Assembly: GCF_905475395.1 (NCBI RefSeq)
Contig: NC_058341.1
Coordinates: 34,549,501-34,613,500, forward strand
Direction of reading: 5' to 3'
DNA: 64,000 nt
Source: Chrysoperla carnea
Lineage: Eukaryota; Arthropoda; Insecta; Neuroptera; Chrysopidae
The translations under genes and the position numbers were made by a program. Below are positions 15,181 to 63,581 of the stretch, piece by piece. The notes below the pieces were generated by a model. That model saw only the letters and a list, made by a program, of their open reading frames with translations. It ran no database searches and was not told the DNA's origin. Numbering within the stretch: the stretch's first letter is position 1; each line of letters begins with the position of its first letter.

Positions 15181-15186
15181 CAAATC

Positions 15187-15326
15187 AACCCAACCCAACC
15201 TAACCTAACCCAGCCTAACCCAGCCCAACCCAACCTAACCCAACCTAACCCAACCTAACCCAACCTAACCCAACCTAACCCAACCTAACCCAACCTAACC
15301 CAACCCAACCCAACCCAACCTAACCA
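15187..15326 (+). repeat. Telomere-like (CCCAACCTAA)n array
   Basis: A degenerate start (mixed CCCAA, CCTAA and CCCAG) leads into seven perfect decamers at 15231-15300, then CCCAA units. The other strand reads TTAGG alternating with TTGGG. It directly adjoins the hexamer array. The tract is interstitial here, with unique-looking DNA on both sides. Confidence 0.9.
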
Positions 15327-32900: not shown

Positions 32901-33028
32901 ATTAAAATTTCATAGAATTAAAAATAATAATTAAAATTTAATATAATTTAATGTTTTCCAATATTTAAGTACTTACAACTAATTCCTACAATTACGAGTC
33001 CTAAAATAAACACCTTGGTAAGGATCAT
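29964..33028 (-). CDS. SP1: secreted S1-family serine protease, 275 aa, 6 exons
   Basis: Exons in transcript order: 33028-32977, 32891-32772, 32707-32500, 31796-31591, 31091-30979, 30092-29964 (stop TAA). All introns are GT..AG and the joined frame is open (828 nt), with phases 1,1,2,1,0. The product starts with a hydrophobic signal peptide (about residues 1-18), then a short propeptide ending DDR, with cleavage predicted at Arg30-Ile31 (ILHG). The triad is His83 in LTAAHC, Asp133 in EDIALLKL and Ser225 in GDSGGP. The six fold cysteines (chymotrypsin 42-58, 168-182, 191-220) are present. Residue 189 is Asn219, and residue 226 is Ile (in EPIVYTNV). This is a standard length for a one-domain secreted zymogen. 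It should hydrolyse peptide bonds outside the cell; gut digestion is likely but inferred. Introns 3-5 (0.5-0.9 kb) hold dispersed repeats. It is the only cluster member on this strand. Confidence 0.93.
32024..32195 (+). repeat. Dispersed repeat in SP1 intron 3 (copy of 5870-6001)
   Basis: Shares with 5870-6001 the ordered blocks ATTCGTTGTG, GCGTAGTCATGGTA, CCAGCGCTTCC or a close variant, TTCTTTACATGTTAATGTTA and CACTAATTAATTAA. This copy has about 30 extra bases in the middle. It has no coding capacity. The repeat lies inside the intron that separates the His and Asp exons of SP1. Confidence 0.8.
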
Positions 33029-33824: not shown

Positions 33825-35555
33825 ATGTTGCGTTTTAACTGTGTTGCTTTTGTTAGCCTCGCCATTATTGGCGTTGCTTTAAGTATGTGTCATTTTAGAA
33901 ATAAAATGTTTTTTACAATTCGATGCAAAACTTATAATATTTTTTTAAATTTTTAGGTGCTCCAAGCACTACACCATCTGACGGAGATGATAGAATCTTA
34001 CATGGACGAAAAGTGGACCAATTAGAACACCCTTATCAAGTTTCTCTCCAATATGTGAAAGGTATTTTAATTTTTTTTTTATGTAGATATAAATTATTTT
34101 AGCATTAAACTATTAAATCTTAAAATATTTCAAAATAATAATTAGAAGGAATATAAATATGTGTAGTTCAAATGTTAATAAAATGCCAACACTAATCAAG
34201 GCCTAAAAATGGACCCTAAAATTTTGCTTTAATTTCTGCTCCCACGGAAAATTTTGATATTTACGAAAAATTGTTTTAAACAAAAGTTGTTTATTTTTAA
34301 TGAGGGATTATTTCTACAATTAAACTTTGTTCTCTCTCTTACGGCTTACAAGATGGGTCCTAAGGCTGAATTATCCTATGTTGATAATTTACGAAATCAA
34401 ACTCACTTTTTACGACTTGTGCACAGTGCCGACAGACGGACAGACGTACGGAAAAATGTAAAACTAATTTGGTCAGACTAAATTAACATTAGTGTACTTT
34501 GATATATATTCCATACAAACACAATGCAGGGTATAAAAACTACTTGAATTTATAGAAAGTAGACTAATAGCTAATTGCTGAAAATACACTAAAATTCTTA
34601 AATAAAAAGTTAAAATATTTTATACGATTTTATAGGCGAAAGAGTGGGGAAATTCTGTGGTGGTGTCATTTTGAATAAAAACTACGTTTTAACTGCTGCT
34701 CATTGTTTTATGGGCGAAAAACGTGATACACATATCAACGCTGGTGTAAAAGATGCATTCGATTACAGCCCACCATCACAATTCATTAAAGTTGCCGAAG
34801 TTATGCTAAATGATAAATGGGATCCAAACACTGCAATAGGCGATATTGCATTATTAAAACTTGAAACTCCATTGAAAATGACACCAACAGTTCAACCTAT
34901 TCAATTGCCATCAAAAGGATATAAAGCATCTGGTGTAGGTGAAATCATTGGATGGGGTGCCATTAATAATGATGAAACAGCCTCATCAAGGGAATTATTG
35001 AGTGCAACTGTTCCAGTTTCCAATCCATCAGGTATTAATAGACAATATTTTGATTTATTACGCACTCTGCAGGAATAATTTTTCTTACCAGCTTATCAGA
35101 ATGCGATCTTGAATTTAACTTTTCAAAAGTGGAAATTTTTATCTGATTTTTGCCATTGTTGCTTATAATGAGGCGTTACCCTGCGGAGTGGCGTGCTATA
35201 TGAATTTAATCAACGTTTTATTAATCGATTTTTATTTTTTATCAATATAGATTGCAGAAAATTCAGAAATTTCCGTAATAACAACCAACTTTGTTTAGCA
35301 GCCAATGTTAAATACAATGCATGTGCTGGCGATTCTGGTGGTGGATTTATCCAAAAAAATGTAAGCGAATTCATACATTTTATCCTATTTCTGAAAACAT
35401 AAAATTTATCTTTTAATTTGATTTAGGCGTCTGGAAAACCCATAGTAGCTGGTATTACATCGTTTGGTGCTGAAGGTTGCTACGAAAAGGAACCAATTGT
35501 ATATACGGAAGTAGCTGGATACCTTGACTGGATTGAACAAAATATAAAAAATTAA
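33825..35555 (+). CDS. SP2: secreted S1-family serine protease, 265 aa, 5 exons
   Basis: Exons: 33825-33882, 33957-34061, 34636-35031, 35251-35360, 35427-35555 (stop TAA); 798 nt, all introns GT..AG, phases 1,1,1,0. Signal peptide about residues 1-20; activation predicted at Arg32-Ile33 (DDR then ILHG). Triad: His77 (LTAAHC), Asp124 (GDIALLKL), Ser215. Residue 189 is Asn209; residue 226 is Ile. Two features set it apart. The large central exon lacks the phase-2 intron that splits the His and Asp exons in the other five genes. The active-site loop reads GDSGGG, with Gly in place of the near-invariant Pro198. The rest of the fold is intact, so I treat it as a working gene, though Pro198 loss could weaken activity. 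Intron 2 (34062-34635) carries a family B repeat. AATAAA lies 35 bases past the stop. Confidence 0.93.
34270..34545 (+). repeat. Family B dispersed repeat inside SP2 intron 2
   Basis: Diverged copy of the repeat also seen at 6120-6560 and, inverted, at 15885-16452. Shared landmarks in order: AAAGTTGTTTATTTTTA, CTTACAAGATGGGTCCTA, GCCGACAGACGGACAGAC and a terminal GGGTATAAAAAC. It lies fully within the intron. It contains a spurious open frame with no sign of being protein coding. Confidence 0.75.
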
Positions 35556-37155: not shown

Positions 37156-39451
37156 ATGGCACGTTTAACATATCTATTGTTGGGGTTTGCGATTGTTGTA
37201 TCCGTTCTAGGTCAGTATTAACATCAAATAAAATTTAAAGGTAATTTTTTATACTCCTAAATTGTTGATTAATTTTTAGGTGCACCGTCAAATATTACCG
37301 ATGGTGACGATAGAATATTAAATGGTAAAAAAGCCGAAAAGAATGAATTTCCATTTATGGTTTCTCTTCAAGAAACAGGTATAAAATACATGAATTACTT
37401 TTAATGGATTTATTACATAATTAAAATCACATTAATCCTTGTAGATTTTAAACCAATTAAATTTTGTGGTGGAGTCGTTATCCATAAATCATGGATATTA
37501 ACAGCTGCTCATTGTCTGAAACAAAATTTCAAAAAACTTACAATCAATGCTGGTAATATAAAGGCTTATGATTATGGTGGAACATCTCAAAATAGTGAAG
37601 TAGCCAAAATTATATTACACGATAATTATATAAAAACGTAATTATCTATTTATGAGCTTTTGCTCAAAATATGAATTGCTCTCTTTAAACAGTTATGTGT
37701 TCTAGTTGAGTACCAGCTGTGCTCTTTTTTCTCATCGAATTACGCCATTTTTCACCTTTGTTATAATACTTTCCATATTTTATGGATATTCATGTACTAA
37801 ATGCTGCTTAGTAGGATATCCTGATCTCTCTTTTAAAGTGCAAGGAGATTAAAAACTCAATAAAATTAAACCTAAAATAATTTAATAATAGTTCGAAAAT
37901 GACTACACTGGATATGTTATACTATCGTTGGGAGTTCAATTAATAATATATATAATTTTCTTACTTAAATTTAACGCGTTACCGGGATTCAATGACCTAA
38001 TTTATCAATTTCCTTCCTTATAAACTGAGAAATGGTGCGATTAGACGCTAGCTGATTTTTTAACCTATGCCTTTCAGAATACTAGGAAATAGTTAAAAAG
38101 TTAGTAAAGTTAGCGGAAAACTTTAGAATCGACCACATGATATAAGCAGTCTGCTCATTTATTAATTTACTACTGGAATACACGCAAAGCACAAATCCGA
38201 AGCTTTTTAATGGATGAAAAAACAAACTATAAAAGCATTAAAGAGCACGTTTTTGGTTAAAAATTGGAAAAAAAATTGATGTAATTTTCCCAGCCTATCA
38301 GCAAATTCAAAGGATATAAAGTATTGGAAAAGTTAATGATATAAAATCAAACTTAGTAAATTTATAAGGCGTGATAATTTTAGGGCATTAGCCAAAATTT
38401 CTTTACTCAATTGAGTTAACCTATTAAGTAAATTTAATTCACTTGATAAATTTTTTCAGAGAAAAGCATGACGATATTGCCCTATTGAAATTAAGAATTC
38501 CTTTACAATTCACAAGCTCAGTTCAACCAATTGCTTTGCCACCAACTGATCACAAAGTTACTGGTAAAGGTATGATTCTTGGATGGGGAGCAATTAATGC
38601 AGATGAATCTAAATCGTCTGACTTTTTACTAAAAGCTGAACTACCCGTTTCGGATCCAGAAGGTACAAATTCGATTAGGTTAAGTTGAAGCGGAACTGAC
38701 TAAAATAAACTTTTTTTTAGACTGTGATCAATTTGTAAGTTTTACCAATCACAATCAATTATGTCTTGGCCATAATGTAAAAGAAAATGCTTGTAGTGGA
38801 GATTCAGGTGGCCCATTTGTACAAAAAGATGTAAGTTATTTTTTAATATATGTTTCAAAATATTGTATATAGCCCTATAAGATGGCAGGCCATGGTTCGC
38901 TTTTTTCTCGCATTTTCTTCGGAAGGGAATGAAAAGTACATACATTCAAAATTTACTAAAGTACCCGTGACTAAAAACAGTCAAGAGAAATAATATAATA
39001 TCAATAGTAATTTACTTTATTTTTATTTATAGGCAATTTTATTACAAATATGATATACAAATTACGTAATGAAGTCAATTAAATGTTAAATTTTTTTCTC
39101 AAGTCTTTTTTTCTAAGCGGTACATTTTCTATTTTCTAGAGTATACTTTGTGTCAGTAGCCAGTATACATAGGACAAAAGAGGCTAGAGAAATAATATAA
39201 ATGATCAAGAGACTGAAAAAAGGAAAATAACCCTCTAAAGGAAACGCGAGAAACTAAGGCACTTAAATCAGTCTCTATCTTACGGTGATAACAATATTAT
39301 TATTATTGTATTTTTCCAGGCAAATGGAAAACCAATGGTGGTTGGTGTTGCATCATTTGGAAAAGAAGGATGTCATGAATATGTTCCTATTGTTTATACC
39401 GAAGTTGCACCTTATGTAGAATGGATTAAAAAGACTATGAAAACGAAATGA
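37156..39451 (+). CDS. SP3: secreted S1-family serine protease, 263 aa, 6 exons
   Basis: Exons: 37156-37210, 37280-37378, 37445-37637, 38460-38662, 38721-38830, 39320-39451 (stop TGA); 792 nt, introns GT..AG, phases 1,1,2,1,0. Signal peptide about residues 1-19; cleavage at DDR then ILNG. Triad: His74 (LTAAHC), Asp121 (DDIALLKL), Ser212 (GDSGGP). The six fold cysteines are present. Residue 189 is Asn206 and residue 226 is Ile (VPIVYTEV). The protein is closest by eye to SP4: both share SDPE before the fifth exon, a Ser at 192 and a C-terminal MKTK. Intron 3 is the longest (0.8 kb) and looks empty. A small open frame antisense to exon 5 is a shadow. A poly(A) signal lies just after the stop. 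Confidence 0.94.
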
Positions 39452-41288: not shown

Positions 41289-43145
41289 ATGGCAAATGTT
41301 AATTACATATTATTGAGCTTTACGATTATTGGAACAGTTTTATGTATGTAAAATTGAAAATAATTTGTTAATAATTAAATTTTAATTTTCTGTAATTTTT
41401 TTTGGATATTGTAGGTGCTCCCACTAATAATACAACTGCCACGGATGGTGACGATAGAATATTACACGGTACGAAGGCAAGTCCAAATGAATTCCCGTAT
41501 ATGGTATCCATTCAAGATTTCGAAGGTAATAATAAATTTATTTTACTAATTTTTAAAAACGCTTAAATATATCGATAACTATTCGATTAAGTAATTCGTC
41601 CTTTGACCTTGAATGATTTTTCAAGAAACTTATGATAGGTCATTTCATGCATCCAAATATAGATAATCCTGGTGAAAAAACTTCACTTGGATTTTTTAAG
41701 GAGATCGGCAGTTTTTTTGTCTTATTTTTGTGGGTTACAAGAAATCCGCGTTCGTTTTTTGGACTGTATTTATTAATATCCTTTTAACCTAATAATTTAA
41801 TTTAAATTACAGATGGTGCTTACGTGAAGAAATTTTGTGGAGGAGTGATCATTGATAAATCATGGATATTGACTGCTGCACATTGCGTTAAAAAACCACG
41901 CTATAGTAGTTTACGTATAAACGCAGGTACAAATGATGCGTATGAAGTACAAGGAAGAACAAACCAATGGATTGAAGTAGCCAAAATAATTATGCATAAC
42001 AAATATGACAAAAAGTTAGTAACATTATTATTCTTCAAGAATTAGCAAGCAATTTTTACAAATTTATAAAATAACAAATTTATAAATATAGGTTTGAAGT
42101 TTTGCATAAAAATAGTATGTGCATATTACCGAGGTATTATAACATTCTTGTCGGGTCTAATTTGCATCAGAAATTTGGTAAATTAACCATTTTCTTAAAA
42201 CAAATATACGAAAACGGAACTGTATTGCATTTATCAAGGATATTTTACGGCTTTGAAAACTTTTTTAGCAATAACTTTTTTCAAATATATATGTGATTTG
42301 CGCTTGGCTGGAATATTTTTTTTCGTAGAACTCACAGACTTATTCTTTTTTATGATTCTAGCGACAAACATCATGATATTGCCTTATTAAAATTAAAAAC
42401 ACCTTTAAAGTTTACAAAATCGGTGCAAGCAATCGCCTTACCACCTAAAGGCTATAAAGCGACTGGTTCCGGAGACATTATTGGATGGGGTACCACTAAT
42501 AAAGAAGAAACAAAAGCATCAGATGTTTTATTAAAAGCTAGCTTACCAGTTTCAGATCCAGAAGGTAAAGAAGCAAATTATGCTGATTCATTCTCATAAT
42601 TTATTCTCAAATTTAAAAAAATTCAAAACAAATTCAATTTTTTTTTCCAATAATTTATAAAACGAGGCTATTAACTTTGCTTATAGTAGAGTAGGCTATT
42701 GACTAGACAACAATTGAACACCTGAGTCACTTATTTAAAGTTGTTAAAAAAGTTTTTTCTTAGGAAAATAAAAAGTAATAACCTTGTTTCTATCTAGAAT
42801 GTGAAGTTTATTTTGAAAGTTGGGGCGCTAATCAACTATGCCTTGGTTATAACACAATACACAATGCATGCTCTGGAGATTCTGGTGGTCCATACATACA
42901 AAAGAATGTAAGTAATTTTAAAGAAAGCCAATTTTATTATACAAAATTCATATAAAAAAATTACTAAAACCAAAATAAATTTATTATACAATATAATAAT
43001 ATCATTTGTGTAGTCTTCTGGAAAAGAAATGGTGGTTGGTGTTACATCATATGGAACAAGTGGATGCTATGAAAAAGTTCCTGTTGTGTATACAGAAGTT
43101 GCTGCCTATCTTGATTGGATTGGAACTACAATGAAAACTAAATAA
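41289..43145 (+). CDS. SP4: secreted S1-family serine protease, 270 aa, 6 exons
   Basis: Exons: 41289-41343, 41415-41525, 41813-42014, 42362-42564, 42798-42907, 43014-43145 (stop TAA); 813 nt, introns GT..AG, phases 1,1,2,1,0. Signal peptide about residues 1-19; a propeptide rich in Asn and Thr ends DDR before ILHG. Triad: His79 (LTAAHC), Asp128 (HDIALLKL), Ser219 (GDSGGP). Residue 189 is Asn213. Residue 226 is Val here (VPVVYTEV), where the other five have Ile. It is the closest sister of SP3, next to it in the same direction, so a recent tandem duplication is likely. I found no canonical AATAAA within about 100 bases of the stop. The open frame at 42102-42296 lies in intron 3 and is a chance frame. 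Confidence 0.94.
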
Positions 43146-47198: not shown

Positions 47199-50100
47199 AT
47201 GCAACAACGGCTTTATTTGATAAGTTTGGTGCTGTTATTGATTAATTACACGTGCGGTAAGTATTTAAATTATTATATGGAAGAAAAATCTCTTAAGGGC
47301 TTTTCATAAGGGTGCCAGAGACGACAAAGTTCTACTCTTTTATATGTTTCTTTAAAATTTCGTTAAAGAGATTGATAAAAAAAATCAATATAAGTCTGAC
47401 CTTTATCAAAATTGGTAATTTGGTAAGCTTCTATGAATGGTTTTTAATCGTATAACTTGAACTGAAATTATTTATTTATTCGATACTGTGAAAAATTTGG
47501 GTATATTTTCTTTATAATCTGAAAGCATTTTCCGCAATGAATGTGTTGTTTTGATTTTTTGTGTATTTCTTATTAAAGAATAACAGCTTTAAAAATTATT
47601 TATCAATTTTTGAGCTATTTTAATGCCCTAATTTTAATAAAATAGGCGAAGAAATCGATACAGATGTAGAAATTGATGATCCAAATATTGATACTGCTGA
47701 AATAGATCGAATTTTACATGGACGTGTTGCAAAGCCGATGACTTTTCCATTTCAAGTTTCATTGCAAGAAAATACTCGAGGTACGTAGCTATTAATAAAA
47801 TTGATAATAATTAAGTTCGAAACAAAACAAAAGAATCAAATGGATCATAAAACTTTCATAGATACAAATATCGATTTTATCGATGTAAAGTTGTAGGTTC
47901 TAACAGGTTTTGAAATTTTTTTAACAGATAGAACTTATAAATTTTGTGGTGGTGTAATTATAAAACCAAAATGGATACTAACAGCTGCACATTGTTACTT
48001 TAACGAAGTAAAAAATGGTAACAAATTTCGAAATGATTTCCGTGTGAAAGCTGGTGTTGTTAAAGCTAATGATTTGGGTCCAACAGCACAATATGTTCCT
48101 GTAAAAAGAATTGTTTTTCATTCCGGCTATAATAATATGTAAGTTCCGTTATATTTTTTCAACAAAATTACCTACAAACTTTAAGGGTACATCCCATATT
48201 CTCTCTTTGGTGATAATTGGACAAGTATTCTTAAATTTTTAGAAGTACTGTTTAGGTGTTCACTATTTCTGAATCCTGCCTGATAACACATAAAACAAAT
48301 TAAGTATAGAGATAAAGAAATACTATACTTAAGTAACAAAAATAAAAATACTAACATGTTGTTTCTCATAAGAATAACTCAATGGATTCCCCACTGTATC
48401 GAATGTGAGCGTTTCTGATAGTTCCTTATAACAAAATAAATATCTCAACTCTATTTTTTTTTTCATATATAAAAATATTTCATTGAATTATTTGTTACAG
48501 AACGTTTGTCAACGATATAGCATTATTACAATTAAAGTATCCGTTAAAATATAATAAATACGTAAGACCTATTGCATTGCCACCAAAGAATTACAAAGCG
48601 AAAGGTATTGGAACTATTGTAGGTTGGGGTGCAATTGATAATGATGAAGAAGTAAGCTCACTAGCATTGCGATACGCCACAATACCCGTATCCAAAAAAG
48701 AAGGTATTGTTTTTTTATTATTAATATTTCTTGAATAATTTTCTACTCATTTTAGGAATGCAAATATTTACTTTTTGTGTAACCCGTAATTGCTACAGTC
48801 TCCACGATTAGCCCAATCGGAGACTATTCGGAAATTATACGTGTGCAAATCTGAGTCGATTGGTTCAGTTAATGCTATATATATATAAGAATATCAGGAT
48901 CAAATCTGTAGTTATTCTAACGAAAACCATCGCTATTTTTGGGGATAATAAAATTGAGTATCGCAACTGGCAATTTATATCGTGATGTGCACGAAGATGT
49001 AAGTCCCATGCCACTCAAAACCGTGCAAGCATTGTGGATATTCGATTGTTGATTCTGCATTTTTTTTCATACTTTTAGCTACAACCCTAAAATACAACAG
49101 ATTAAAAAAATCGAATTGGAAAGTTTCGATCGATAATGACGTCCAAAAAGCCAATCGTAGTATGAGACTCAAGACTGATATCATTTTACAAATAAATAAT
49201 GATTCGTTAACATGATTCTATCGGCTAATTCTAGTGTATTTAATATGCGTTAACTTTCCTTAATTTTGATGAGAAATTGTCAAAGTCGCGAACACCTAGT
49301 CGATTCAAAATGAAAAACTATTAAACTTTTGTTCAACTTTAATTAAAAGACTAAACTTGTAAAAACTTTAGTTTAAAAAAGAAGGAGAAGTTTAAATAAA
49401 AGAAAGTTTTTAAGAAGTTTTTTTTTCGAAGTTTCTTGCATAATAATAACTAATATATTGCCAGCGATTTTTAACAATCCATCTCACTGAAAAGACTCCA
49501 AAATCTCCAAATAGTCAACCTACGTTTACCAGCCCCATGTCCTAACAAGTTTACAATTTTTCTCTTTTCGTGTAGAATGTGATGAATATTTCGAAAATCC
49601 ATTGACAAAAAATCAACTATGTTTGGGAGTTAACAGCAAGTACAATGCATGTGCTGGAGATTCTGGCGGTCCGTTTGTTCAAACTATTGTAAATATAATC
49701 AAATAGTGCCCTTAATTATAATATTGTTGATAAATAAATCTCATTTTCTAGAAAGGAAAACCAGCTGTTGTTGGAATCACTTCGTATGGAACAGAAGGAT
49801 GTTATGAAGACGAACCAATTGTATATACTAATGTTGTATCTCACCTCGATTTTATAAAGAAAACAATTATTGGAGCATCCGAAAAAACGAATAAAGATAT
49901 CGATGAAAAACCTCATCCATATCTAGTTTCATTATTGGACTATGATGGTATGTAGTGAAATACAAAAAATAAAACAAATTTCATGTAAAATAACAAAATT
50001 GTTTTAGAACTTGAAGAATCATATGAGAATTTTTGCACTGGGGTCATTATTCATGAAAAATGGGTGTTAACAACGGCTGATTGTTTTGATAATGAAAATA

Positions 50101-52885
50101 AAAATCGGGTATCCTTTATGCGAATAAAAATTGGTTCACCGAATCCCAATATTAATGTTGATGAATTATTAGAAATTTCAAAATTCATTCGTCATCCATT
50201 GTATAAGATTGAGTAAGATATTTTATTTCAGTAAAAATATAATTTAGTTTAATGTAGGGAAAAGGATCGAGGACACTCGGTATTCTCCTTTTTCTTCACA
50301 CCATAATCAAACACGTTAACGAATTGAATTAGATAACTTTCTTAGAACATTTTCAATCGTCAATCCCACTATATATTCACAATAATTACCACGATTGCTC
50401 CATGTTTTTGTTTCACTTGAATACCCAAATCCAAAAGTTTTAAAAACGTGTTGCTCAATTTGTATATCATTTATATATCTTTCCAAAGTACATAATTGCA
50501 AGTAAAGATAGAGTTGATTAACACCAGGGAAAATAAATAAACATAATAAATAATAAAAAACTAAAAAGTTCAATTAACCGACCTATACACAATAAATTAA
50601 AATTTTATCTATAAAAAAATGTTTCCTATTGAATTAAAAAGTTAGGTAATTTATTTAGTGTAGGAAAGAACACACAAATAACTATTCGAAATCGAATTTT
50701 ACAGAAAAATGGTTAAAAGTTACAACTGCGTACAATAGTCTAGCCCACAATTTCCAATTAGTGAAATATAGAAATATTAGTCTTAATAACTACGTACTCA
50801 TTTATATGGCGGCTACTACAGCAATTTTGGATTTTTTATTGGATATTTTCTCCTCTTTAAGGAATGTTTTTTTAAATTTCTTTAATATTTTATAAAATAT
50901 TGACGAAATACCTTTTTCTCATCTTTAATTATTGATAACTTTTGAAATTTTTTTTGTGTGATGAAAAATTCTTCTGGCATATTTTTCCAGACGTCATTCC
51001 GACTTCAGAATTAAGATCATTATTTCCATATTTCACCAATTTTGAACTTGTTGACTAGACATACAAGGTGTTCATAATAACCTTCATAACTAGTTTATTC
51101 CACAAGGATTACATAGATATAAAATTTATAAATAAAATCTAGCGAAACCAAACCGTTCTGGTAGGAATGGCATTTGTAATTTATAGTGTGTTCCTTCAGG
51201 CAGATTTTGCTAGAGACGACTATTTTGTAACTTATTTATATTTAACTTACTTTTTTACACTAGTTTTTTCCTCTGGCGCACCTATATAGGTATATTTAAC
51301 TTTTCATAATGGCTTTACGCGCCCACATGTTCTACGTTTAATAAAATGCATATAAAATAAAAAAAATTTTCTGACTATAGTTGAGCGCCTCCAGTTGTTA
51401 AATATAGAGACAAAAAATTTCTTATGATTATATAATAACATTTAAAGCTTGTAAATAAATTACTATTAAAGTCCAGGATAGATATATTTAAAATGTTCCA
51501 TTATGATGAGGAAATTCTTTTCTTAACATTCGGGTTTTTCATGAAAATTTAATTTTTCTGGTCTTAAAAGCGTTTTTAAAGCAATTTTGAAGCTTAGTTC
51601 ATACAAGATTTTTCTTTTCCTTTCAGGCTTAAGTATATCTTGAAATTTCCTCTCTGCGTTAATAATTATTTGGTTCTATTCTCATGTTGTAGAGTTCTCT
51701 GTAAGGCTTTAAAATTTCCCAATTTTTACATCAAATAGTTCCTATATTCATATTTTTAACATGGCTACATAGGAAATATATTATTGTGATGCCTGAATTA
51801 AAGTTGTGACTTTTTTCAGAGATAAAGATATGAAATTCAATGTAGCTTTAATCAAATTGAAAGAATCCTTACCTAGTTTACAATCTGAGCAAAAAGCATT
51901 TTTACCATCAAATGATTTTGATGTTAAGTCTTTCAAAGGTCAAATAATTGGTTGGCACATTGAGAATTCAATCAATGATATAGAAGATAATACAGAATAC
52001 AGCTTGGCAACGGCAAATGTAACAAACGGTGACCAAGAAGGTAAGTTTTTTAATGACATTCTCAAATGGTATAGGAGTGTCACGAAACAATTGATTTTTT
52101 AAAGGCTGGATGTTGATTTTTTCTTCTTATTGAAATAAAGTATGCCAGACAGCAGTGTACGGTTGTGTTACTCCGTTTACTAGTGCGTACGTCCCGAAAA
52201 AATCCGCAAAAATTGTTTATTTTAAGAAAACTTTTAAGAAAAATTAAATTCATATATGTTTCACAAGTTTTTAATTTATTTTTAATATTTTTTTTACTTA
52301 CACCTTCTCTCGTAACGAGAAAAATTCTCACAATACCTGAAGTACTTGAAAAAATATATTTAAAAAAACTGTAGATCGGTTAAATAAATTTAAAAAAATC
52401 AAAATTCTAAAATAGATAAAATTATATGAAAAATAGTAAAAGTTTCAACCACATACACCGTTAGAAAAATAAAAGTTATTTATGTTTTCAATCGATCGTG
52501 GGCAAATTCCTTATAACGCGAGTGCTACCAGGTTAAATAATTAATATGTTTTACATGTTGCTTCCTGTTTTTAGAATGTAAAAAATATTTTCCGAATCAA
52601 GCTGAATCCACAATATGCGTCGTTCGAACTGATAAGACATGCAATTTCGATACAAGTAGTCCATTAATTGTTCCAAGTGTAAGTATAATTTATTAATTTG
52701 TACGCAATTTTATAAAATTTGTTTATAAGTTTTATTTTTATTTTTTTCAGGACAAAGGTAATTTTATACTTGGATTGAATACCATAATTGGAAAAAATTG
52801 TGAAGAAAATAAACCATTTTTGGTCTCAAATATTTTGTATTATAGTGAATTTATTAATAATATTATAAAAAATAAGAAATTGTAA
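47199..52885 (+). CDS. SP5: two-domain S1 protease, active plus dead domain, 526 aa, 10 exons
   Basis: Exons: 47199-47256, 47646-47780, 47928-48138, 48501-48703, 49576-49688, 49752-49947, 50008-50212, 51820-52040, 52575-52678, 52751-52885 (stop TAA); 1,581 nt, introns GT..AG, phases 1,1,2,1,0,1,2,1,0. Signal peptide about residues 1-20; acidic propeptide; cleavage at Arg41-Ile42 (ILHG). Domain 1 triad: His86, Asp140, Ser232; residue 189 Asn226, residue 226 (chymotrypsin numbering) Ile. Domain 2 (about 290-526) aligns throughout but has Asp330 for His57 (TTADC), Asn381 for Asp102 (FNVALIKL) and Thr474 for Ser195 (FDTSSP). It has no R-ILHG cleavage site. Its six fold cysteines remain. No exon shows a frameshift, so the dead domain appears to be maintained. 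Its role may be binding or regulation; this is inference. Confidence 0.93.
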
Positions 52886-52913
52886 GCCGGTGTGGAAATT
52901 AAAATTGTTTTTA

Positions 52914-52919
52914 AATAAA
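52914..52919 (+). terminator. Poly(A) signal of SP5
   Basis: AATAAA 29 bases after the SP5 stop codon. Confidence 0.6.
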
Positions 52920-55900
52920 TTAAACTCATATAATAATTTATTTTAGGGTAAGGCCAAATATAAGAGCTATTATGAAAAAGCTGTAAATAACAAACCCATC
53001 AAATAATTTTTCCACTTTAAAATTCTTAGAAAAGAGTATTTTCTTGTTCAGGATGTATACTCTCCACGATTTTTTTATTTGTATACTTTCGATATTCTCA
53101 ACAAGATCCCGCCATGTTGCTGAAATTTCGAAAAAAAAAATCATTTGTGACGTTTTTTAAATATAATTAATGCTTAAGAATACCGATATGAAAATACCGA
53201 TAGTTAAAATTTTCAATTCCGTCATCTGATTGATTGCCTATAAACTTCGATAATCTAACCAACATAATGCGATTTTATCTGGGGAGTAACGAGTATCGAA
53301 ATATCTTCTCATCAAAAAGGAAGTGGTTCAAATCAAACTTCCAATGCTACGGGATGTGATGCATAATAAGACCACTCCGGAAAAATCTTTACGCCTAAAC
53401 GTATACGTCATCTTGGTGGAATTATTTCTAAAACTTTTAGTCGCATTTACTTAATTATCAAGAATGTTTTTTAAATTAAATAATAAGGTATTAAAAATAA
53501 AAATAACGTATACTTAATTAACATAATTTGCTTAAAATTATAATTTCCGTAGAATTACAAATGAATTTTCTTCAATGTTATGAAACTCGCCTTTTTTATG
53601 TAATTTAAGGTGGTTAAGAAATAATTTAGAAATTTGGCGGTATTTTATTTGCGTCCTCCAAAATTAACTTTATTCGTTAGAATCAAAGACTATGAAGGGA
53701 ATTTGATAATAACACCACCGTGGTTGTCAATATTGCCACTTTGTATTAACTCCACTTCCTGTTTTGGGTTATAAAACATATGTTTAATAAAAAATATTTG
53801 GCAGGGAGCAAGGGGCATATGTATAGAGTGTCTACTTAAGTTGGTTACATACGGAAAACTTTTTTATTGTAAGATTTACGAAAACACTTTATTCTTTAAA
53901 AAATGCCTTCTTTCGATTAGTACTAATATTCACTTTTAAAATTGAATGAACACAGTGTACACAAATTCAAAAAGCTTAATAGAAATGTTAATGGTCGTTT
54001 AGAAATGTAGGGCATTTTTGGAATCTTTTATTTTTAATTTTTTTCTTTCTATACGCACGAAAACTGGCCTCAACATTTTATAAACTGATGAATGAAAATT
54101 CAATTTCAATAAATTTTTCCATCATCAACTTTGTCCAAATAATTATATAATTTCGACACTCTTTTGTAAAACAACAAGAGAAAAACAAAATTTCAAAAGC
54201 AAGTTCTAGTATCTTTAACAAAAAGGGTTTTTCATGCAATAAACATTTGTTAATATTTTTTCATATACTCTTTTTAACAACCGGTTTATAAAATTATAAT
54301 AGCATTTTGAATTCCCAAGAATTTTTTTTAGCCATCCAATCCATATATGAATTAATAAAAAATTTTCCAATGTCCATCAATCAACAATTCCAAAAAAAAA
54401 AGTGATTTCGATTTCTCTTGCTGTTCCTGCCAAATCTAATTATCTAACATCAAGCATTTCAGTTTGAAGGACCTAGGCGTACTTAATAATTTTTTTAAGT
54501 CCTATTTGTTAATATTTAATTATTATTTAAAAGCGTGATAACTAACAATTATTAAACGATTACCAGTTCTTTAATTGTACAAAATGTGAAGTTAACTGCT
54601 GTTATTTTAATAATAATGTTAAATATGATTAATAAAACCGGTTTAATACCTATACATTGTTTATCTTTTTAAATTATTGAAAATGTTTGATTATTGAAAC
54701 TCAAACAATTTTTAAGTAGTTATTAAAAAAAAAAATGAAACTGACTTCAAAAACAAAACATTTATTTTAAAATTATTTTTAATTTTTTGAAAGGGGTTTT
54801 ATTTTTACTGCAGGGTATCTTTCACTTCAGAGTCTGCACCATAGAAAAATCATTACTTATAACAAACGACACTCGTTTTTCCAAAAAATACATTATAAAA
54901 TACAAGTTATGAAATGAATAGCATTTATGTGTTATTTGTTCTATAAGTGATTTTCTCTTGATTGTCGATTAGGTTCTAACAGAATTCAATGTCAAATTTG
55001 AAACGTAAGTCTCAAATATTACCATACATTCATTATTTTGGGAACGTCCTTATGTAACATATATACATACAATTTTGTGTTTAGAATAAATGCTATACTG
55101 CCAATACTTCTTCAGCTATTCTTATTATTTAACACCTCTATCGCCTTGCAAAATTAGGAGTTTTGTTATTCAAAGCACGCAGAACTTAAAAATTCCAAAT
55201 ATTGATGTTTAGCATGCAAAAATACTTGTGAACGAAATTAGATCCTAGCTATTGTCTACCTCTGGTATGAAACGAAAATACAAGACATAAAATACGTAAG
55301 GATTATATATATTTGATATACCGCATAGTTGCTTAGTTGTCAAAGCACTCTTTCCCTCCTATTATGCGTTAGCAAATTAATTAAATACACTATCTCACTT
55401 AAAAATTCCAGACTTTTAGTAGACGCGCTATATAATTAATAAATTAAAAATATTAAAATCATTAAGAATAAACATTTTTAATTATACTTGTTATTATCAA
55501 TAGGGGAAGGAGTAGTTCCTTGAATCAAAATTTACATTTATTTTAACTTTTTTTTTTTTTTTTTGAAATGCATTAAAATTTTATAATGGAAATTGCCTCT
55601 AATTATAGCACTGTTATTTCTCAACAATATGCATTTTTTTCAACGTTACACGAACTGTGATTTCCATGAACAATATAATTGAATCTGTATAGCAATCCAC
55701 TTCTTTCAGAGTCCAACAACAGCTTCAACTATTACTTTTTATGAATCTGGGTTGTCTTTTTTTCCCCACTAATATTTTGCTTACCTATACTTGAAAACCC
55801 ATAAAACACAAGAATTTAATTTTAAATTTTAATATTTACATATTGAAATGCATAAATTGTTAGTTTCTAGGTACATTATGTTGTTTGATTCAAGGTACAT

Positions 55901-57422
55901 CACGTTGCGTATTTGATGCTCTTCAAAACGTTACTCTTAAAACTGGAATATGTTATAACAATGTACCTACTCACCAAGAACCAGTGAATTATGTTGAGCA
56001 TGGTTAGTAAGACGGAAGTTATCTATAATAATGTATCAGATATATTTTCCAGGAAAAATGTTATTTCTAGTTTATACGAAAATAAAACCATATAAGCGGC
56101 CAGTCTTCAGCCTGCCTGTACTCTGATAAATTGTCCTGATTTTAATGGAAATGTTGTTCAATTAATATCAATATCTGCTGAGAAAGATTAATTCAAGGTA
56201 CTTTTGACTCTGTATAGGTACTGCATCTTACCCTACTAGTTATTATTAAAAGTCAATGATATAAATATTATTTATTTATTTACATATAGTGTATTTTCCT
56301 AATCCCATAGTTTAAAAATTTATTGATTAATATTTAAATTCAAAAGTATTTCCTTAATGCTTTTAGCTTTTATTTCCATTTTCGCAACAAAACAGAATAT
56401 AAAATATCGAAGGTAGTGTAAGTGAGTGAAGGAAAAAATTGTTAACTCCTCACAATTTTTGTTTTTTTGATTATTACCAAAAAATCAAAATTACCAAAAA
56501 AAATTTGTCCAGCGTAAATTTAGTGTAGGAACTTTTGATCTCAGTTTTAACAAATAAAAGTCCTTAGGTAGTTTGAGCATGTGCGATATTGTGAGATTTG
56601 CCGTATTTAAGTTCTGGTTCTGTCAAACTTTAATTGCGTAGGTACTTCTGCTAAATTTAATAAATATCAGCTTTTTATCTTTATTTATTGTCTTTTTTTT
56701 GATTTTACAAAGAGCAGATATTCAATTAACTTTTAGTTGGCGAGGAATTTAAAAATTTGTCGAACTCTTTACTTTAAAAGAACAGCTCTCTCAATATCAC
56801 CGTTTCACTTGGTTGTTAGACTAGACACAAATTTTTGACTAAACTGCAAGTAGATCCAAAAAATACAAATGTATCAAAACGATACTCCGGCAAGAATGAT
56901 GCAATTGCAACGGGAGAAAAAATATCGTCAACTTTCATGTACTTAAGCTTTCATACTTCAAGAAAATTTTACCGAAAATACAGTTTTTCAACTTTCAATT
57001 TGCTTTTACCCCAATGCATTCTCTCAGAGATTTTTCTTAAATTGCTACAGATCAAGAGGGAAAAGAATTAATAAATCAGAGGTGAAAAAGGACAAAGTTC
57101 GGAAAATTTTTCCTTTATAGGCTAAATTCCAAAAAATAAACAAATTCCCTAATAAATTTTTTTTTTTGGAAATTAGAAAATAATAATAAAAGTAATTTTG
57201 GGGATGTTTTTCAAATTTACTTGTTTTCAAACGAATTTTTACGTTTAAGCTTTTTATCAAAAATTAATGTTTTGCCGACAATAATTTAAAACAATTGTTT
57301 ATCGGAAAAACCACATAAGAAGAGAGTTGAAGCTCTTGTGGAATCATTTACAGGGTTTTTATTTTATAATAGTTTAAAAACAAAATAGGGAATCCCAATC
57401 TATTTTCCTCAACAAAAATTTA
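52920..57422. other. Spacer between SP5 and SP6
   Basis: About 4.5 kb with no gene I can support. The two longest open frames (56835-57071 plus, 57045-57260 minus) lack any domain, signal peptide or splice context. The sequence looks like decayed repeat DNA, with poly-T and poly-A runs (for example 55548-55564). Confidence 0.6.
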
Positions 57423-57470
57423 TATAAATGACTACAAAATATTATTTTGTTTAGTTGTTTGTTGTCAGTG
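57423..57470 (+). promoter_or_regulatory. Possible core promoter of SP6
   Basis: TATAAAT at 57423-57429 lies 56 bases before the start codon. A weak initiator (TTAGTT) is about 30 bases on; a better one (TCAGTG, 57465-57470) is at a less usual 44. The promoter is likely here but the start is unclear. Confidence 0.4.
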
Positions 57471-57478
57471 TAATCAAG

Positions 57479-60400
57479 ATGTATGCGGTTGACATTGGGT
57501 TGTTGTTAATTTCAACATTAGCATGTGTTTACGGTAAGTTATTGTTTATTATTGCTGACGCGGCTTAAAATGAACTTCTTCAGTCCAGAATGGATGTTTA
57601 TTACTCTTGTAATTATCCTTCCTTTCTTTTCTGAAAAATTCTTTCTATACAGGGTAGTCTAAGTTACATCAACAAGAATTCACCAAATGCTAGGCATTAA
57701 ATGAATGAAAATTTCTCAGAACACTTATAGCTGGGAAAGCTTTTACGTTCTATACCATTTGATAAAGTCCTGCTATTAAATAACTTTGACACCCTGCATA
57801 CTTTACTCAGCTTCTTAGGCTTGTTACTAAGACTTTAAGATGACTTCTTAGTCATTTAAGGGTTGTTGAAGATTCCATAATAATTTCTTGCTCTTCTAAC
57901 CTTGACATTGTCTTTATAACTTCAGCTATTATTTGCCTTTAAGTATTCACGGTTCAAAGACTTGAAGACCTTGCCATAAGAGTTCAAGTCATTGGTATCA
58001 ATTAGTATCTACGAGCTATAATAGCTTGATCTAAATGTAAATGAAGGTCACAGCGCTGATCGTCGAGGCATAATAGAACGATAAGAATGACTTGACACTG
58101 GTGTCATATTATTATTTTTGATGAGTTATTGTAGTAGCTGTATCTTAAGCGATCAGTTCAGAAACACCATAAGTGTAACAATTGATTTGAAATTTTGTGT
58201 CAGTACTTCCCAGTTTAACACATCTATTCATATTTTCTTGATTTTTAAGAGCACAACATTCATTCGATTATTTTATGTTAAAAATGAATCTTACAATGAT
58301 TTATCACTTCTTATCGAAGAAAAGAAAAGAAAAAATCGGATATTTAAAAAGCAAATAATTCATTAGAATGCCAGTAGAAAATAGGGTACGATTTGGTTTA
58401 CCATAATGGACCGGAAATTAGAAGATGGACCATAATTGATCGGAAAGAATCAGAAAATACATAGAATTATAATGACAAAATTTTGTACTCTGCGAAGCGT
58501 CTCAACGCCAACCCCTTGTTTATCGGTCGATTTTTCTCTTTAACTGGACCTTTCAAATACCAAAATCCTTCTTGATAGCAAATTTTATTCAAATCTGACT
58601 TAAATTGCGATCGCTAGAGGTACAGACACCTAGAAACATAGATACATTTTTACATACATAGCTCAGTGTCACAAAAAATGCACAGATTACATGTAATCCG
58701 TGCATTTTTTGTGCCACTGAGTGTACATATATATCTTGTTCTTTATCACAAAAAAGCAACTTTTATTTAAAATAATAATATAAAACTAGATTTCTATTTT
58801 TGGAACCTGGTTTTATAATTTTTGGGGCCAAATTTGTTTATTTTTCAATAAAATCAAGAATAAAAGAAAATTATTTTAGCCTTTTGAAAAAAATTTCAAA
58901 TAAAATTAGTTTCATTTTTGCTAAAAAAACACCTTGTTCTATTTCAATCCTGTTTTATCTTGAAGGTATCTCGTTATAAAAAACTGAAAACTGTTCTGTC
59001 AATGATGTCAATATTCTATACCTCGTATAAGTCACTCAAAAACCATTAATCATAGAGTTTTGAAGTTCGATAAACGTAGAAAATTTTTGATTCTTTTCTA
59101 CAGGTTAAAAGCTAAAAATTGGCATTGCTGCTTCGAAAGCTTCAGTAATTTTTACTTAATTTGATAGGAATAAAGTGTTTAATTATCAATTATACCAAGA
59201 TAAAATTAAAGTTGGTTGTAGCCTTGGTCACATCATTACATGCCATCATACCATGTCCTGTAGTGCGTGGGCAAATGGAAAAATTTATTTTATTGAAAAT
59301 ACTGTGAACAATCATTGTGCGTACTTTTTGCAAATATAAGATTACCACAAAGTAAATTTTACAGTAAAATTGAAAAATTTTTCTAATGTACGACTTTAAA
59401 AACAAAATAACCAAGCAAAACTTGAAATGTGAACTCTTTTGATTTGCCCTGAACATATACTGAAATTAATATTGAACCTAAGGTTGTTATATTTAGAGTG
59501 TAAAAGGATTTATCGAAAGTTTACTGTTAATATCTTTGAAATTTCAAAATAAAATAGTTCTAAGAACGGTCTTCTTAGCCCTTGGAATAAATTACTGCTT
59601 AGAAACAAACATATTTTCTTTTTTGGTGAGAATGGATTTCTAAACAACATTTCTTGGAAAAAGAATTTCTGCCTTTAAAAATTGTAAGCCATTATTTTTC
59701 TATTTTCTAGGTGTTGAAAATATTGATTTGGATAAAATAGAATTTCCTACTGATATACCAAACAGAATTCTAAATGGACAAATAGCAAAAGCAAGGCAGT
59801 TTCCATATCAAGTTTCGTTACAAGAAAGAGAACGCAGTAAGTGTTTTGTTCATAAGGTTCTGCAGACACTATTATTCTATGAATTAAATGAATGAGGATG
59901 GTGTCTGTGCAACCTTAAATGAAAAGAAAATTCAATTGGCTTCTATAAATTTTAAATTTTAACAGATATTGATTCTAAATTCTGTGGTGGTGTAATATTA
60001 AATGCAAACTGGATTTTAACCGCTGCACATTGTTATGCTCCAATTGGCTCATCTTTCTCAAATGACTATTATATCAAAGCTGGTAATACGAAAGCTTTTG
60101 AATTTGGAGACACCACACAATTTATAGAAGTTTCCAGAATTATTTTGCATCCTCAATATAATGATGAGTAAGTATTCATAGTCCCTATTTAGTTTCTGAG
60201 TTGGTTTTTATAAAAATAAATTTTTCATTTTCAGTACGAATATTAACGATATTGCTTTATTGCAATTAAAGCATCCATTGAAATTCAATAAATATGTTCG
60301 ACCAGTAAATTTACCAAGAAAAAATTATGACCCAAAAAATGGACAAATAGGAACAATTGTTGGATGGGGTGCAATCGATAATGCAGAACAAATAAGTTCA

Positions 60401-63400
60401 AAAGTTTTAAGATACGCGAATATTCCAGTATCTCCAAGATCAGGTAGGGTAATTAAAATTGTCCATCGTTCGAGAAACGCACAATATATGATAATTAGCC
60501 GTAAGGGAAAATAAATGTTTATCATGCGATATAATTCTGAAGAAAAAATTGACAGGAGTTGTCACTTTGTGAATAGAAGACGAATTAAAGAAAAAACAAG
60601 TTACGAGTTATTTACTTTTTAATGGGTCTAGTGCCTTTGATTTTAAGCTCAGAATTGTTACCAGGATTCCTATGCGAAAAAACCTTTTGAAGATAAACGA
60701 ATTATTTTTCAGCTGATTTTTTCCCCAGGAATCTTATGTTATAGATTTATTTTCATGAATATTTATTGGGGAATTTTTGCCCAGGGACCTGCAATCCCTC
60801 AGTTCATTTTAAACGGAATTAAAAGCGTTTTTTTTTGTGGAATATCGGACCTAAAACCACTTGTTACTGTGCATGAAGCTAAAATTAGCTAAAATACATA
60901 GACATATTTATGGTAAAAATTTTAATAAAATTTTTTTATTTTTAGCCTGCAATAAATATTTTGAACCATTACGAAAGAGTCAAATCTGCTTAGGATATAA
61001 AAGTAAATACAATGCTTGTAGAGGTGATTCTGGTGGCCCATTTCTTCTATCAATTGTAAGTTGCATATTTAATTTATAGATAACATTTATTACACACTTA
61101 TCAAGATGACAATACAAGAATTTAGTAAGTTTGTTCGATTATCCCGACCAGGATCTTCATGAATAACGATTAACTAAAAATTATTTGATGGTGGAAGCGC
61201 AGATAATATTTCAAAATATTAATTTAGAATAGTTTAAAAAACTAAAAAACGCGCTTCTGTATCTAGCTGAACTAAAAAGTACAAAATAATTTCTATATGC
61301 TCAAAAAAAAAAATAGAGTGATTTGAAAAAAATCATTTTAACGTAAAAGCGTAAGGTGCTTTTAAAGATATTTTCTAATGACGTTACTTTTACCAATATC
61401 TATCTGTCAATAAAATGTTTACAATAATTGGAATGCAGCACCCTACGCTTTTTTACGATAAATTGTTTTTTTTTTCTTAATCACTCAATCTTATCTAATC
61501 AATTCTCATTCTTTTCTAATCTTTTTGGAGTTTTATAGCCTCTTTGTTATTTTTTAAATAGATTATTTTAGAAAAGACGTTGGGATAGATTGTATGATAG
61601 ATAAGTAACTAGAATAAGTAAAAGTTGTATTTTCTCATTTTCAGAACGGAAGACATACCGTTGTGGGAATAACATCATTTGGAACAGTTGGATGTCACGA
61701 AAATGATCCAATCGTGTACACAAATGTTGGATCTTTTGTAGATTTTATTAATTCTAATATTAAAAAATATTCGAAAAAAAGTTCAACTGATGATTCTAAC
61801 ACCGGGTCCAATTATTCATACTTGGCATCCATTCAAGAATATAATGGTAAGAAAAGCTTTTATGTGTCAATTATAGGCTTTATTGTGTTTAAAATATACG
61901 CCTGGAGATCAAGAAAAAAATAAGTATACTTAAAAGTTTTATCTCTCCCAGTTTCTGGGTGTTAAAAAGTATATTCATAAAAGCGGTAGTAATGATGTTT
62001 TCCAATTTTGATTTGAAATATAGTTAGAACTTACAGAATTAGACAAAAGTAAAGCGCAAAATTGTTCGATCTAAGTTTTGAAAAGTAAACAAAAATAAAT
62101 TTATTATTTCGAATTGTTCAGTATATAAATTACGTACATTTGCATACAAAATCAGAATAGCGTAGTAAAAAAATGTTTGTCCTTAACCAGGATCTTGGCT
62201 ATGTTACTTATTGTGACTTTATTATTATTTCAGATGAAGATGAGAGTTATGAAAAATTATGTACCGGAACAATTGTTGATGAACGTTGGATATTTACTTC
62301 AGCAGATTGTTTTGATAACAGTGGAAGAGATCGTACACCATTCATACGTGTGAAAGTTGGATCTGTGGATGTAGACGATGATAAAAAAGGAACTTTCCAT
62401 GAAATTTTAAAATTCGTTATTCATCCTGAATATAATCCCGAGTAAGTACTTTAAAATTATTTTAAGCCAAACGCAGGAAAATATATCAGCTGGTTAATCG
62501 ATTAAATGCCCTGCATATACTGAAAAATACACAGCTTATGAGAAAAAATTTGTTGGTGGTAAATCCATGAATCGATTTTGTCTAATTTTGTTCTCTAAGT
62601 CCCTTTTGGAATTTAGAAAATATTTCTTAAACGTTCTCGAACAGAAAAAAAGCCACTTTTATCATAAAATTAAACACTTTTCTACTCAATGTGTAAGGAA
62701 AAGCTCTTTTATCTTATTGCAAACTTGTCATATAAGAAGCTTTGTTCAACCTCATACATATCTGAAATAATTTTATTTTCATCTTTTAGGGACAAAAATG
62801 TGAAAAATAATATTGCTATGGTTTTATTAAAGAAACCATTGACCTTATCGAAAACTGTTAGCAAAGCATTTTTACCACCAAGTTTTCTTGATCCGAACAC
62901 AATTGAAGGTAAAATTGTTGGATGGAGTGCAGAGAATTCCACAGATGATGTGATTTCACATCGTATTGTTTCCACTGAAGTTACGAATGGTGAACCAAAG
63001 AGTAAGAATTTTAATCAAAATTAACAATTTAAATTTGGAAGTAGAAAGTAAAGCAATTTGTTATTTTTTACAGAATGTAAAGAAATGTTCCCAAATATGG
63101 ATGAAACAAATATATGCTTAGTCAGAATCGGAGGTAATTGCAGTCCTGACATTGGAAGTCCATTAGTAATTGAACAAGTAAGTAACTGGATAATGATCTT
63201 AACAGTATATATTATAATTTTTGAGGTTCAAATTTGCCTTAATCCTAAAAACAAGCGTGACAGTATATCCATGATAAATTTCCGGGAAAGTCTATGGGAA
63301 AAATTCCTAGAAACAAAATCTGTGGTAGCTTTGATTATTTTTAATGTTGAGCAATTTTACAGATAACTTAAGATTAATTTTTGGTAAAACTACTATATAA

Positions 63401-63581
63401 GTAATCGCTTATTTGTAAATAAAAAATTTTTTAATTTTCTTTATAGAAAAATGGAAACATAATTGTTGGATTAAATTCAATTGTGGATAAGAATTGTGAA
63501 CAAGATAAACCATTTTTGGTAACAAATGTGCATAATTTTGCAAATATTATCGACAGATTAATGCAGCTAGTATCTAAATAG
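57479..63581 (+). CDS. SP6: two-domain S1 protease, active plus dead domain, 520 aa, 10 exons
   Basis: Exons: 57479-57533, 59711-59836, 59966-60167, 60235-60443, 60946-61055, 61645-61846, 62234-62441, 62790-63001, 63074-63177, 63447-63581 (stop TAG); 1,563 nt, introns GT..AG, phases 1,1,2,1,0,1,2,1,0, the same as SP5. Signal peptide about residues 1-19; cleavage predicted at Arg37-Ile38 (ILNG). Domain 1 triad: His82, Asp133, Ser226; residue 189 Asn220, residue 192 Arg (others Ala or Ser), residue 226 Ile. Domain 2 (about 285-520) has Asp326 for His57 (TSADC), Asn378 for Asp102 (NNIAMVLL) and Ile468 for Ser195 (PDIGSP), with all six fold cysteines kept. The linker is rich in Lys, Ser and Asn. 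Intron 1 is long (2.2 kb) and holds a 60-base palindrome. Sister gene of SP5. Confidence 0.93.
58662..58721. repeat. 60-base near-perfect palindrome in SP6 intron 1
   Basis: Two 30-base arms meet with no spacer; they differ at two positions. The arm begins CTCAGTGTCACAAAAAATGC and the centre is TTACATGTAA. It could extrude as a cruciform or be a tiny foldback element. It is within an intron, 1.1 kb from either exon. Confidence 0.8.

Follow-up and report, generated by a model that had tools for sequence, protein, structure and literature searches.

Chains in which an active S1 serine protease domain is joined to dead ones have already been described in the available portions of reports on humans (PMC1435904) and beetles (PMC11172050), and this weakens the claim of an earlier note on this DNA that such an arrangement was the most interesting thing in it. 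The two genes studied here, SP5 and SP6, are a good new example of a pairing that is itself already known. Human polyserase-2 is an extracellular, uncleaved chain of three S1 domains, one active and two inactive through the loss of triad residues, and the consensus activation motif is absent from both domains of polyserase-3 (passages of PMC1435904). In Tenebrio molitor, four of the seven polypeptidases are single chains in which an SPH domain comes after a chymotrypsin-like SP domain; each peptidase unit is preceded by regulatory modules, most commonly a pair of Sushi domains, and an activation site is predicted before each SP or SPH domain of the six secreted polypeptidases (passages of PMC11172050). 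The dead domain was proposed there as a dominant-negative binding protein acting on the active one, an idea taken from the secreted polyserases, and the same passages mention the Anopheles gambiae SP(H)-SPH-clipE-SPH polypeptidases and Tribolium SP14.

Other chains with several S1 domains appear in the partial texts available. The 'polytrypsins' of Helicoverpa armigera have two complete trypsin domains and are the products of gut genes responding to dietary inhibitors (PMC9693090, PMC13398162), and Nudel-type chains contain a second, pseudo-protease domain (PMC4676143, PMC1761132, PMC11172050). Honey bee SP17 is listed as SP-SP (PMC1761132, PMC4676143) and a 'polyserase 2-like' protein is listed in a mosquito immune complex (PMC5310873), again according to those portions of the sources.

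The window, that is, the whole stretch of 64,000 nucleotides of Chrysoperla carnea DNA that was analysed, contains SP5 and SP6, which at the level of gene models have the composition by which a polyserase or polypeptidase is defined (at least two S1 domains, one open reading frame, one chain). The first domain (D1) looks like an active protease of the digestive type and the second (D2) looks dead. The best explanation, to which we give a probability of about 0.5, is that both genes come from a fused ancestor and pair a live D1 with a conserved dead D2 that would be a non-catalytic module tethered to D1, with a regulatory or binding role.

Gene models and the exon shared by both domains

Six S1 serine protease genes were found between positions 29964 and 63581, all on the plus strand except SP1 (Table 1); these 34 kb contain four relatives with a single domain each and the two fused copies, which have diverged. 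The coordinates, substitutions, reading frame and ten predicted exons given in the earlier note for SP5 and SP6 were recovered as claimed, with no internal stops. Exon 1 of SP6, the sole candidate that passed a hydrophobic-stretch-plus-donor filter between 53000 and 59710, is uncertain, and no exon 1 was found for SP3 with this filter. Nine nucleotide alignments were obtained between the SP5 and SP6 regions, one of them of D2 with D1, and these were 66-92% exonic, the exon share of the SP5 region being 27%. When viral_contigs was queried with SP5 D1, there were six pattern matches and no relatives by tblastn.

Table 1. Genes, predicted exons and domains of the protease cluster (positions in the window).
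Feature	Position	Strand	Description
SP1	29964..33028	-	S1, one domain, intact triad; paralogue for comparison
SP2	33825..35555	+	S1, one domain, intact triad; without intron between exons 3 and 4
SP3	37280..39451	+	S1, one domain, intact triad
SP4	41289..43145	+	S1, one domain, intact triad
SP5 gene	47199..52885	+	Ten predicted exons; 1581 bases = 526 codons + stop; open spliced frame, GT-AG introns
SP5 exons 1-5	47199-47256, 47646-47780, 47928-48138, 48501-48703, 49576-49688	+	Predicted
SP5 exons 6-10	49752-49947, 50008-50212, 51820-52040, 52575-52678, 52751-52885	+	Predicted
SP5 D1 (aa 42-281)	47711..49874	+	S1, H57/D102/S195, activation site R|ILHG; Pfam Trypsin
SP5 fused exon 6	49752..49947	+	D1 end, linker, D2 start, one frame
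SP5 D2 (aa 282-526)	49875..52885	+	Dead S1, D57/N102/T195, six cysteines present
SP6 gene	57479..63581	+	Ten predicted exons, GT-AG introns; 1563 bases = 520 codons + stop; exon 1 uncertain
SP6 exons 1-5	57479-57533 (candidate), 59711-59836, 59966-60167, 60235-60443, 60946-61055	+	Predicted
SP6 exons 6-10	61645-61846, 62234-62441, 62790-63001, 63074-63177, 63447-63581	+	Predicted
SP6 D1 (aa 38-274)	59767..61764	+	S1, intact triad, activation site R|ILNG
SP6 fused exon 6	61645..61846	+	D1 end, linker, D2 start
SP6 D2 (aa 275-520)	61765..63581	+	Dead S1, D57/N102/I195, six cysteines present

The intron phases of SP5 and SP6 were 1,1,2,1,0 in D1, then 1,2,1,0 in D2, and the same series was seen in SP1 and SP4; the match of SP1-SP4 to SP5 is partly by construction, because the SP5 phases guided the choice of splice sites in SP1-SP4, and the open frames that resulted bear it out. 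These common phases suggest that SP5 and SP6 belong to the same gene family as their neighbours.

In both fused genes, exon 6 goes from the end of D1 through the linker to the start of D2 with no stop between them, and it finishes at a phase-1 donor, where exon 2 of the paralogues ends. No donor of the GTAAG or GTGAG type was found inside exon 6, in which plain GT and AG pairs are present. Since D1 ends and D2 begins within one exon in both genes, separate transcripts for the two domains would be unlikely under these models, and a product with D2 alone would be without its first strand. The models themselves could be wrong, so that the D2 exons would be separate genes beside single-domain proteases, or D1-only products would be made: the exon structures rest on prediction, exon 1 of SP6 is a candidate, and intron 6 of SP5, if retained, brings a stop soon after D1. 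However, the stop-free passage from D1 to D2 up to a paralogue-like phase-1 donor in both genes, as well as the lack of GTAAG- or GTGAG-type donors inside the exon, make this very unlikely, and D2 as a separate gene was rejected on the fused exon.

Both models begin with a hydrophobic, signal-peptide-like N-terminus. Apart from the twelve cysteines of the fold, each chain has a single further one, located in or close to the signal peptide (residue 19 in SP5, residue 16 in SP6), and no cysteine was found between the last fold cysteine of D1 and the first of D2 in either gene. At a Pfam E value of 0.001 both whole chains matched only trypsin-type families and DUF1986/DUF316, and no Sushi, LDLA or clip models.

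Residues lost and retained in the second domain

Two stretches of each chain matched PF00089 (2.4e-73 for the whole of SP5 and 5.8e-83 for the whole of SP6). By its homology to PF00089, its H57, D102 and S195 and its R|ILHG or R|ILNG motif, D1 of both genes is assigned to S1A. Residue 189 of D1 is Asn and residue 216 is Gly, and D1 is most likely a chymotrypsin- or elastase-like enzyme that would be cut at R|IL(H/N)G.

Chymotrypsin numbering was given to the D2 domains by aligning them to what we take to be the sequence of bovine chymotrypsinogen. According to this alignment, His57 is changed to Asp and Asp102 to Asn in both D2 domains, while Ser195 is Thr in SP5 and Ile in SP6. The corresponding codons are at 50079-50081, 51839-51841 and 52652-52654 in SP5, and at 62305-62307, 62809-62811 and 63151-63153 in SP6. 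With S1 homology and three triad residues replaced in both genes, D2 is classed as a serine protease homologue (SPH).

As read from the alignment, the damage is not confined to the triad and reaches well past it, to the oxyanion glycine, the floor of the S1 pocket and the activation N-terminus. The 16-19 motif of D1 (ILHG/ILNG), and with it the activation site, is missing from D2 in both SP5 and SP6; positions 188-189 of the S1 pocket are a gap in both D2 domains, and A190 is replaced by T or N, G193 by F or P, G197 by S and Y228 by V, positions 215-216 being Ile-Ile or Ile-Val (G216 to I or V). With the pocket residues, glycine 193 and the 16-19 N-terminus gone, canonical binding in the D2 cleft is unlikely, and it was rejected as a candidate function because the cleft is dismantled in both D2 domains. 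The binding of substrates or inhibitors suggested in the earlier note consequently loses ground as far as the old cleft is concerned.

A decoy role, in which the old cleft would bind substrates without cutting them, or protease inhibitors from the diet or the host, has some precedent: SPHs were discussed as possible inhibitors or decoys in a paper on the H. armigera midgut, and the two-trypsin-domain genes of this species respond to soybean inhibitors, one being up-regulated and one down-regulated (passages of PMC9693090 and PMC13398162). Nevertheless, with the cleft in ruins and without the 16-19 N-terminus that would order the D2 pocket, non-canonical binding would be all that is left, and we consider a decoy quite unlikely.

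Cysteines 42, 58, 168, 182, 191 and 220, as well as D194, were retained in both D2 domains. When the 71 positions that are invariant in the six active domains were compared, 24 were kept by both D2 domains (including all six Cys, D194 and several Gly), 26 were lost in both (including 16, 17, 19, 57, 102, 189, 190, 193, 195, 197, 216 and 228) and 21 were lost in one. The same replacement was found in both D2 domains at 14 of the 26 positions lost in both, one shared gap counted.

The fold of D2 was identified by matches to Pfam and to PDB sequences. D2 alone matched Pfam Trypsin (PF00089) at 5.8e-22 in SP5 and 7.5e-25 in SP6, and, judged from these E values, its resemblance to the S1 fold is not due to chance. 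Sequences from the PDB matched residues 33-243 of the 245 of SP5 D2, with a best E value of 2e-13, and a two-row D2 profile matched 472 distinct PDB sequences at 0.001 or better.

Selection on the second domain and history of the fusion

SP5 and SP6 showed 61% identity in D1 and 39% in D2 (42% in the two-row alignment), while D2 residues paired at random gave a mean of 6.6% and a maximum of 13.1% (2000 draws). In the shared fourfold boxes the third bases agreed in 8 of 26 cases in D2 (chance about 0.32) and in 31 of 58 in D1 (chance about 0.38), with a Fisher p of 0.06 for the difference between the domains. The silent sites of D2 are therefore at chance while its protein identity is roughly sixfold the chance level, indicating that residues were held by selection.

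Pairwise codon fits rejected an omega of 1 for both D1 (2dlnL 130) and D2 (2dlnL 100); dS was at its cap in the D2 pairwise fit and in others, and the omega values are rough because silent sites are saturated, but their direction is secure. Under a shared neutral distance, omega was 0.049 for D1 and 0.089 for D2, a difference (2dlnL 20.5) that makes D2 the less constrained domain. The fourfold counts hint that D1 and D2 may differ in distance, so that a shared one is doubtful.

A branch model was fitted on a fixed eight-domain tree set by us, with four pairs joined at one point, using 228 alignment columns in which at least seven of the eight rows were filled. It gave an omega of 0.045 for the D2 tips and 0.054 for the background, and an omega of 1 was rejected for the D2 tips jointly (2dlnL 118) and singly (27.6 and 20.4); three omega classes were better than one (2dlnL 11.1). 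Omega on the D2 stem hit its upper bound and was indistinguishable from 1 (2dlnL 1.0). When neutral drift from D1 was simulated without indels, from two starting sequences, 33 and 26 of 2000 copies were still stop-free at 0.1 changes per site, but 0 of 2000 at each of 0.3, 0.5, 1.0 and 1.5.

Thus, from the sequences compared, D2 appears to be maintained by purifying selection and not to be decaying. The upkeep of D2 claimed earlier holds, with an omega of 1 rejected for the pair and for each tip and with an identity far above that of random pairing; a dN/dS near 1 in D2, which had been named as the finding that would refute it, was likewise rejected, on silent sites that are saturated. That D2 is a decaying remnant, whose frame survives only because a stop codon would cut the fused chain short, could be argued from the lower conservation of D2 than of D1 and from the stem omega, but selection on the frame alone would not preserve residues as seen in D2, where identity persists with fourfold third bases at chance, and both D2 domains have six of six cysteines. 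Contradicted in addition by the tip omegas, decay is in our opinion scarcely credible.

In the tree of the eight domains, the two D2 domains formed a clade with 100/100 support and the two D1 domains one with 99/100. Homogenisation of D1 and D2 inside each gene was rejected, since pairing D1 with D2 gave p-AU values of 1e-84 and 2e-73, and the fused gene was therefore duplicated as a unit. A clade of all four SP5 and SP6 domains was absent from the tree but was not rejected (p-AU 0.124), with a long D2 stem in play; D2 may thus come either from the lineage of D1 or from a different gene of the cluster. From these trees, the fused gene would predate the split of SP5 and SP6, D2 having by then, most simply, already changed at positions 57 and 102. 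This agrees with the earlier proposal that catalysis was gone before the two genes parted, as the D2 clade and the D57, N102 and 188-189 gap common to both D2 domains indicate.

The sequence of events that we propose begins with one fused two-domain S1 ancestor, from which SP5 and SP6 would descend. The fusion would have occurred in a local tandem array, through the joining of a protease gene to its neighbour, so that a single exon came to cover the last part of one and the first part of the other. On the stem branch D2 would then have lost its enzymatic role and become a tethered, permanently zymogen-like module. The locus would then be a clear example of how fusion within a tandem array of ordinary proteases can give rise to a pseudoenzyme, and the order of fusion, burst of change and renewed constraint is testable with this array.

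Possible roles of the second domain and comparison with known systems

Residue conservation was counted at a list of positions that we take to be functional. Between D1 and D2 of the same gene, 3 of 31 functional positions were kept in SP5, compared with 54 of the 179 other positions (p 0.016); in SP6 the counts were 6 of 31 and 55 of 179 (p 0.28). Between the two D2 domains the functional positions were alike in 15 of 31 cases versus 71 of 182 other sites (p 0.33), and the region 183-228 was not significantly above the rest (21/41 versus 63/167, p 0.15). As controls, functional sites were alike in 27 of 32 cases versus 110 of 182 between the D1 domains (p 0.009), in 28 of 32 versus 99 of 182 between SP1 and SP2 (p 0.0003) and, not significantly, in 23 of 32 versus 112 of 182 between SP3 and SP4 (p 0.32). 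An old D2 active site that was remodelled and has since been maintained, through packing or a new contact, fits these counts and would fit a reuse of D2.

The computed charge was basic for D1 (+10 in SP5 and +8 in SP6, pI 9.2) and acidic for D2 (-11 and -8, pI 4.9 and 5.1) in both genes, the four single-domain neighbours ranging from -4 to +2. The acidic excess of D2 was strongest at 28-40, the 37-loop (-6 and -5), and D1 had a basic excess at 116-135 (+5 and +4, versus +1 to +3 in the neighbours). The asymmetry was not significant in a sign-flip test (p 0.07 for SP5 and 0.14 for SP6), and the two genes are not independent. It is conceivable, though doubtful, that D2 is an electrostatic partner of D1 in cis, docking to shield or to present an exosite. 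If this were true, two copies of one digestive enzyme would have given a self-contained, module-free switch or targeting device.

The linkers of SP5 and SP6 are polar and contain lysines, and with no cysteine beyond those of the fold and the signal peptide to hold the halves together, gut proteases could split D1 from D2. D2 might then be released by cleavage of the linker as a free SPH, for instance in immunity; but little linker sequence is common to SP5 and SP6 in the two-row alignment, and no clip module was found in either chain by Pfam at E 0.001, and we regard release as unlikely.

Under the preferred reading of D2 as a tethered module, D1 would be cut at its activation site and then act as a chymotrypsin- or elastase-like enzyme, while D2 would stay attached and steer D1 by its surface, through binding of a partner or matrix, through stability, or through restraint of substrate access. 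If D2 controls D1 in cis, these genes would be a simple model of dead proteases regulating live ones.

No module-free active-plus-dead insect pair was found in the literature consulted, mostly open-access, and the insect SP/SPH catalogues of Ross, Cao, Jiang and others may well include one.

In the portions of the sources at hand, polyserase-2 resembles SP5 and SP6 in having S1 domains in one chain of which only the first is active (SP5 and SP6 being known from gene models), and differs in having three S1 domains, not two, and in being from a vertebrate. The order of SP followed by SPH is shared with the Tenebrio polypeptidases as they are described there, whereas SP5 and SP6 have no Sushi modules at a Pfam E value of 0.001 and no activation site before D2. 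The Anopheles chains and Tribolium SP14, as mentioned in the same text, likewise have several S1 domains, some of them dead, in one chain, but with clip or Sushi modules and, in the Anopheles form, with more domains. The Helicoverpa polytrypsins also have two S1 domains, of which, from the passages available, the second is dead only in SP5 and SP6. Nudel, as far as those texts describe it, joins a protease and a pseudo-protease in one chain as SP5 and SP6 do, yet it is very long and has an embryonic role, numerous LDLA modules and, in moths, a transmembrane region. Single-domain insect SPHs have a dead S1 fold like that of D2 but stand alone (passages of PMC4676143 and PMC11172050), and clip-domain SPHs have a clip before the dead S1 domain, whereas SP5 and SP6 have none at a Pfam E value of 0.001. 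Compared with these insect examples, as far as the available texts describe them, SP5 and SP6 present an active-plus-dead S1 pair without their Sushi, LDLA and clip modules.

Second domains of SP5 and SP6

When the dead second S1 domain (D2) of SP6, a two-domain protease gene, was compared with the Pfam family DUF1986, amino acids 310-402 gave a match of 46.7 bits, against a cut-off of 25.2 bits. Unlike SP6, whose D2 thus scored above the cut-off, the other two-domain gene, SP5, had its best DUF1986 stretch in the intact first domain (D1).

The stretch preceding the activation site of SP5 D1 was longer than its counterparts in the single-domain genes SP1-SP4 and visibly more acidic; D1 itself was basic.

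Features of SP2

In the SP1, SP3, SP4, SP5 and SP6 models an intron separates exon 3 from exon 4; SP2 had none at this place, and this difference is a predicted single intron loss inside the cluster. The active serine motif of SP2 was GDSGGG instead of GDSGGP (P198G, bovine chymotrypsin numbering), with the triad intact.

Left flank and simple-repeat array

Locations of the features in the window
Feature	Gene	Positions
DUF1986 match in D2	SP6	62290-62700
Stretch before D1 activation site	SP5	47646-47710
Missing exon 3/exon 4 intron	SP2	34636-35031
GDSGGG motif	SP2	35251-35360
Simple-repeat arrays, (CACTCC) adjoining (AACCCAACCT)		14706-15325

No S1 exons were found in positions 1-29000 by tblastn with the SP5 exons as query (E up to 1), and half of the 12 stop-to-stop frames of at least 85 aa in positions 1-30000 lay within the simple-repeat array, so that the flank 1-29000 looks gene-poor. 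The array comprised about 78 copies of (CACTCC) and about 14 of the adjoining (AACCCAACCT). Because AACCT matches the complement of TTAGG, the insect telomere unit, this may be an internal telomere-like array.
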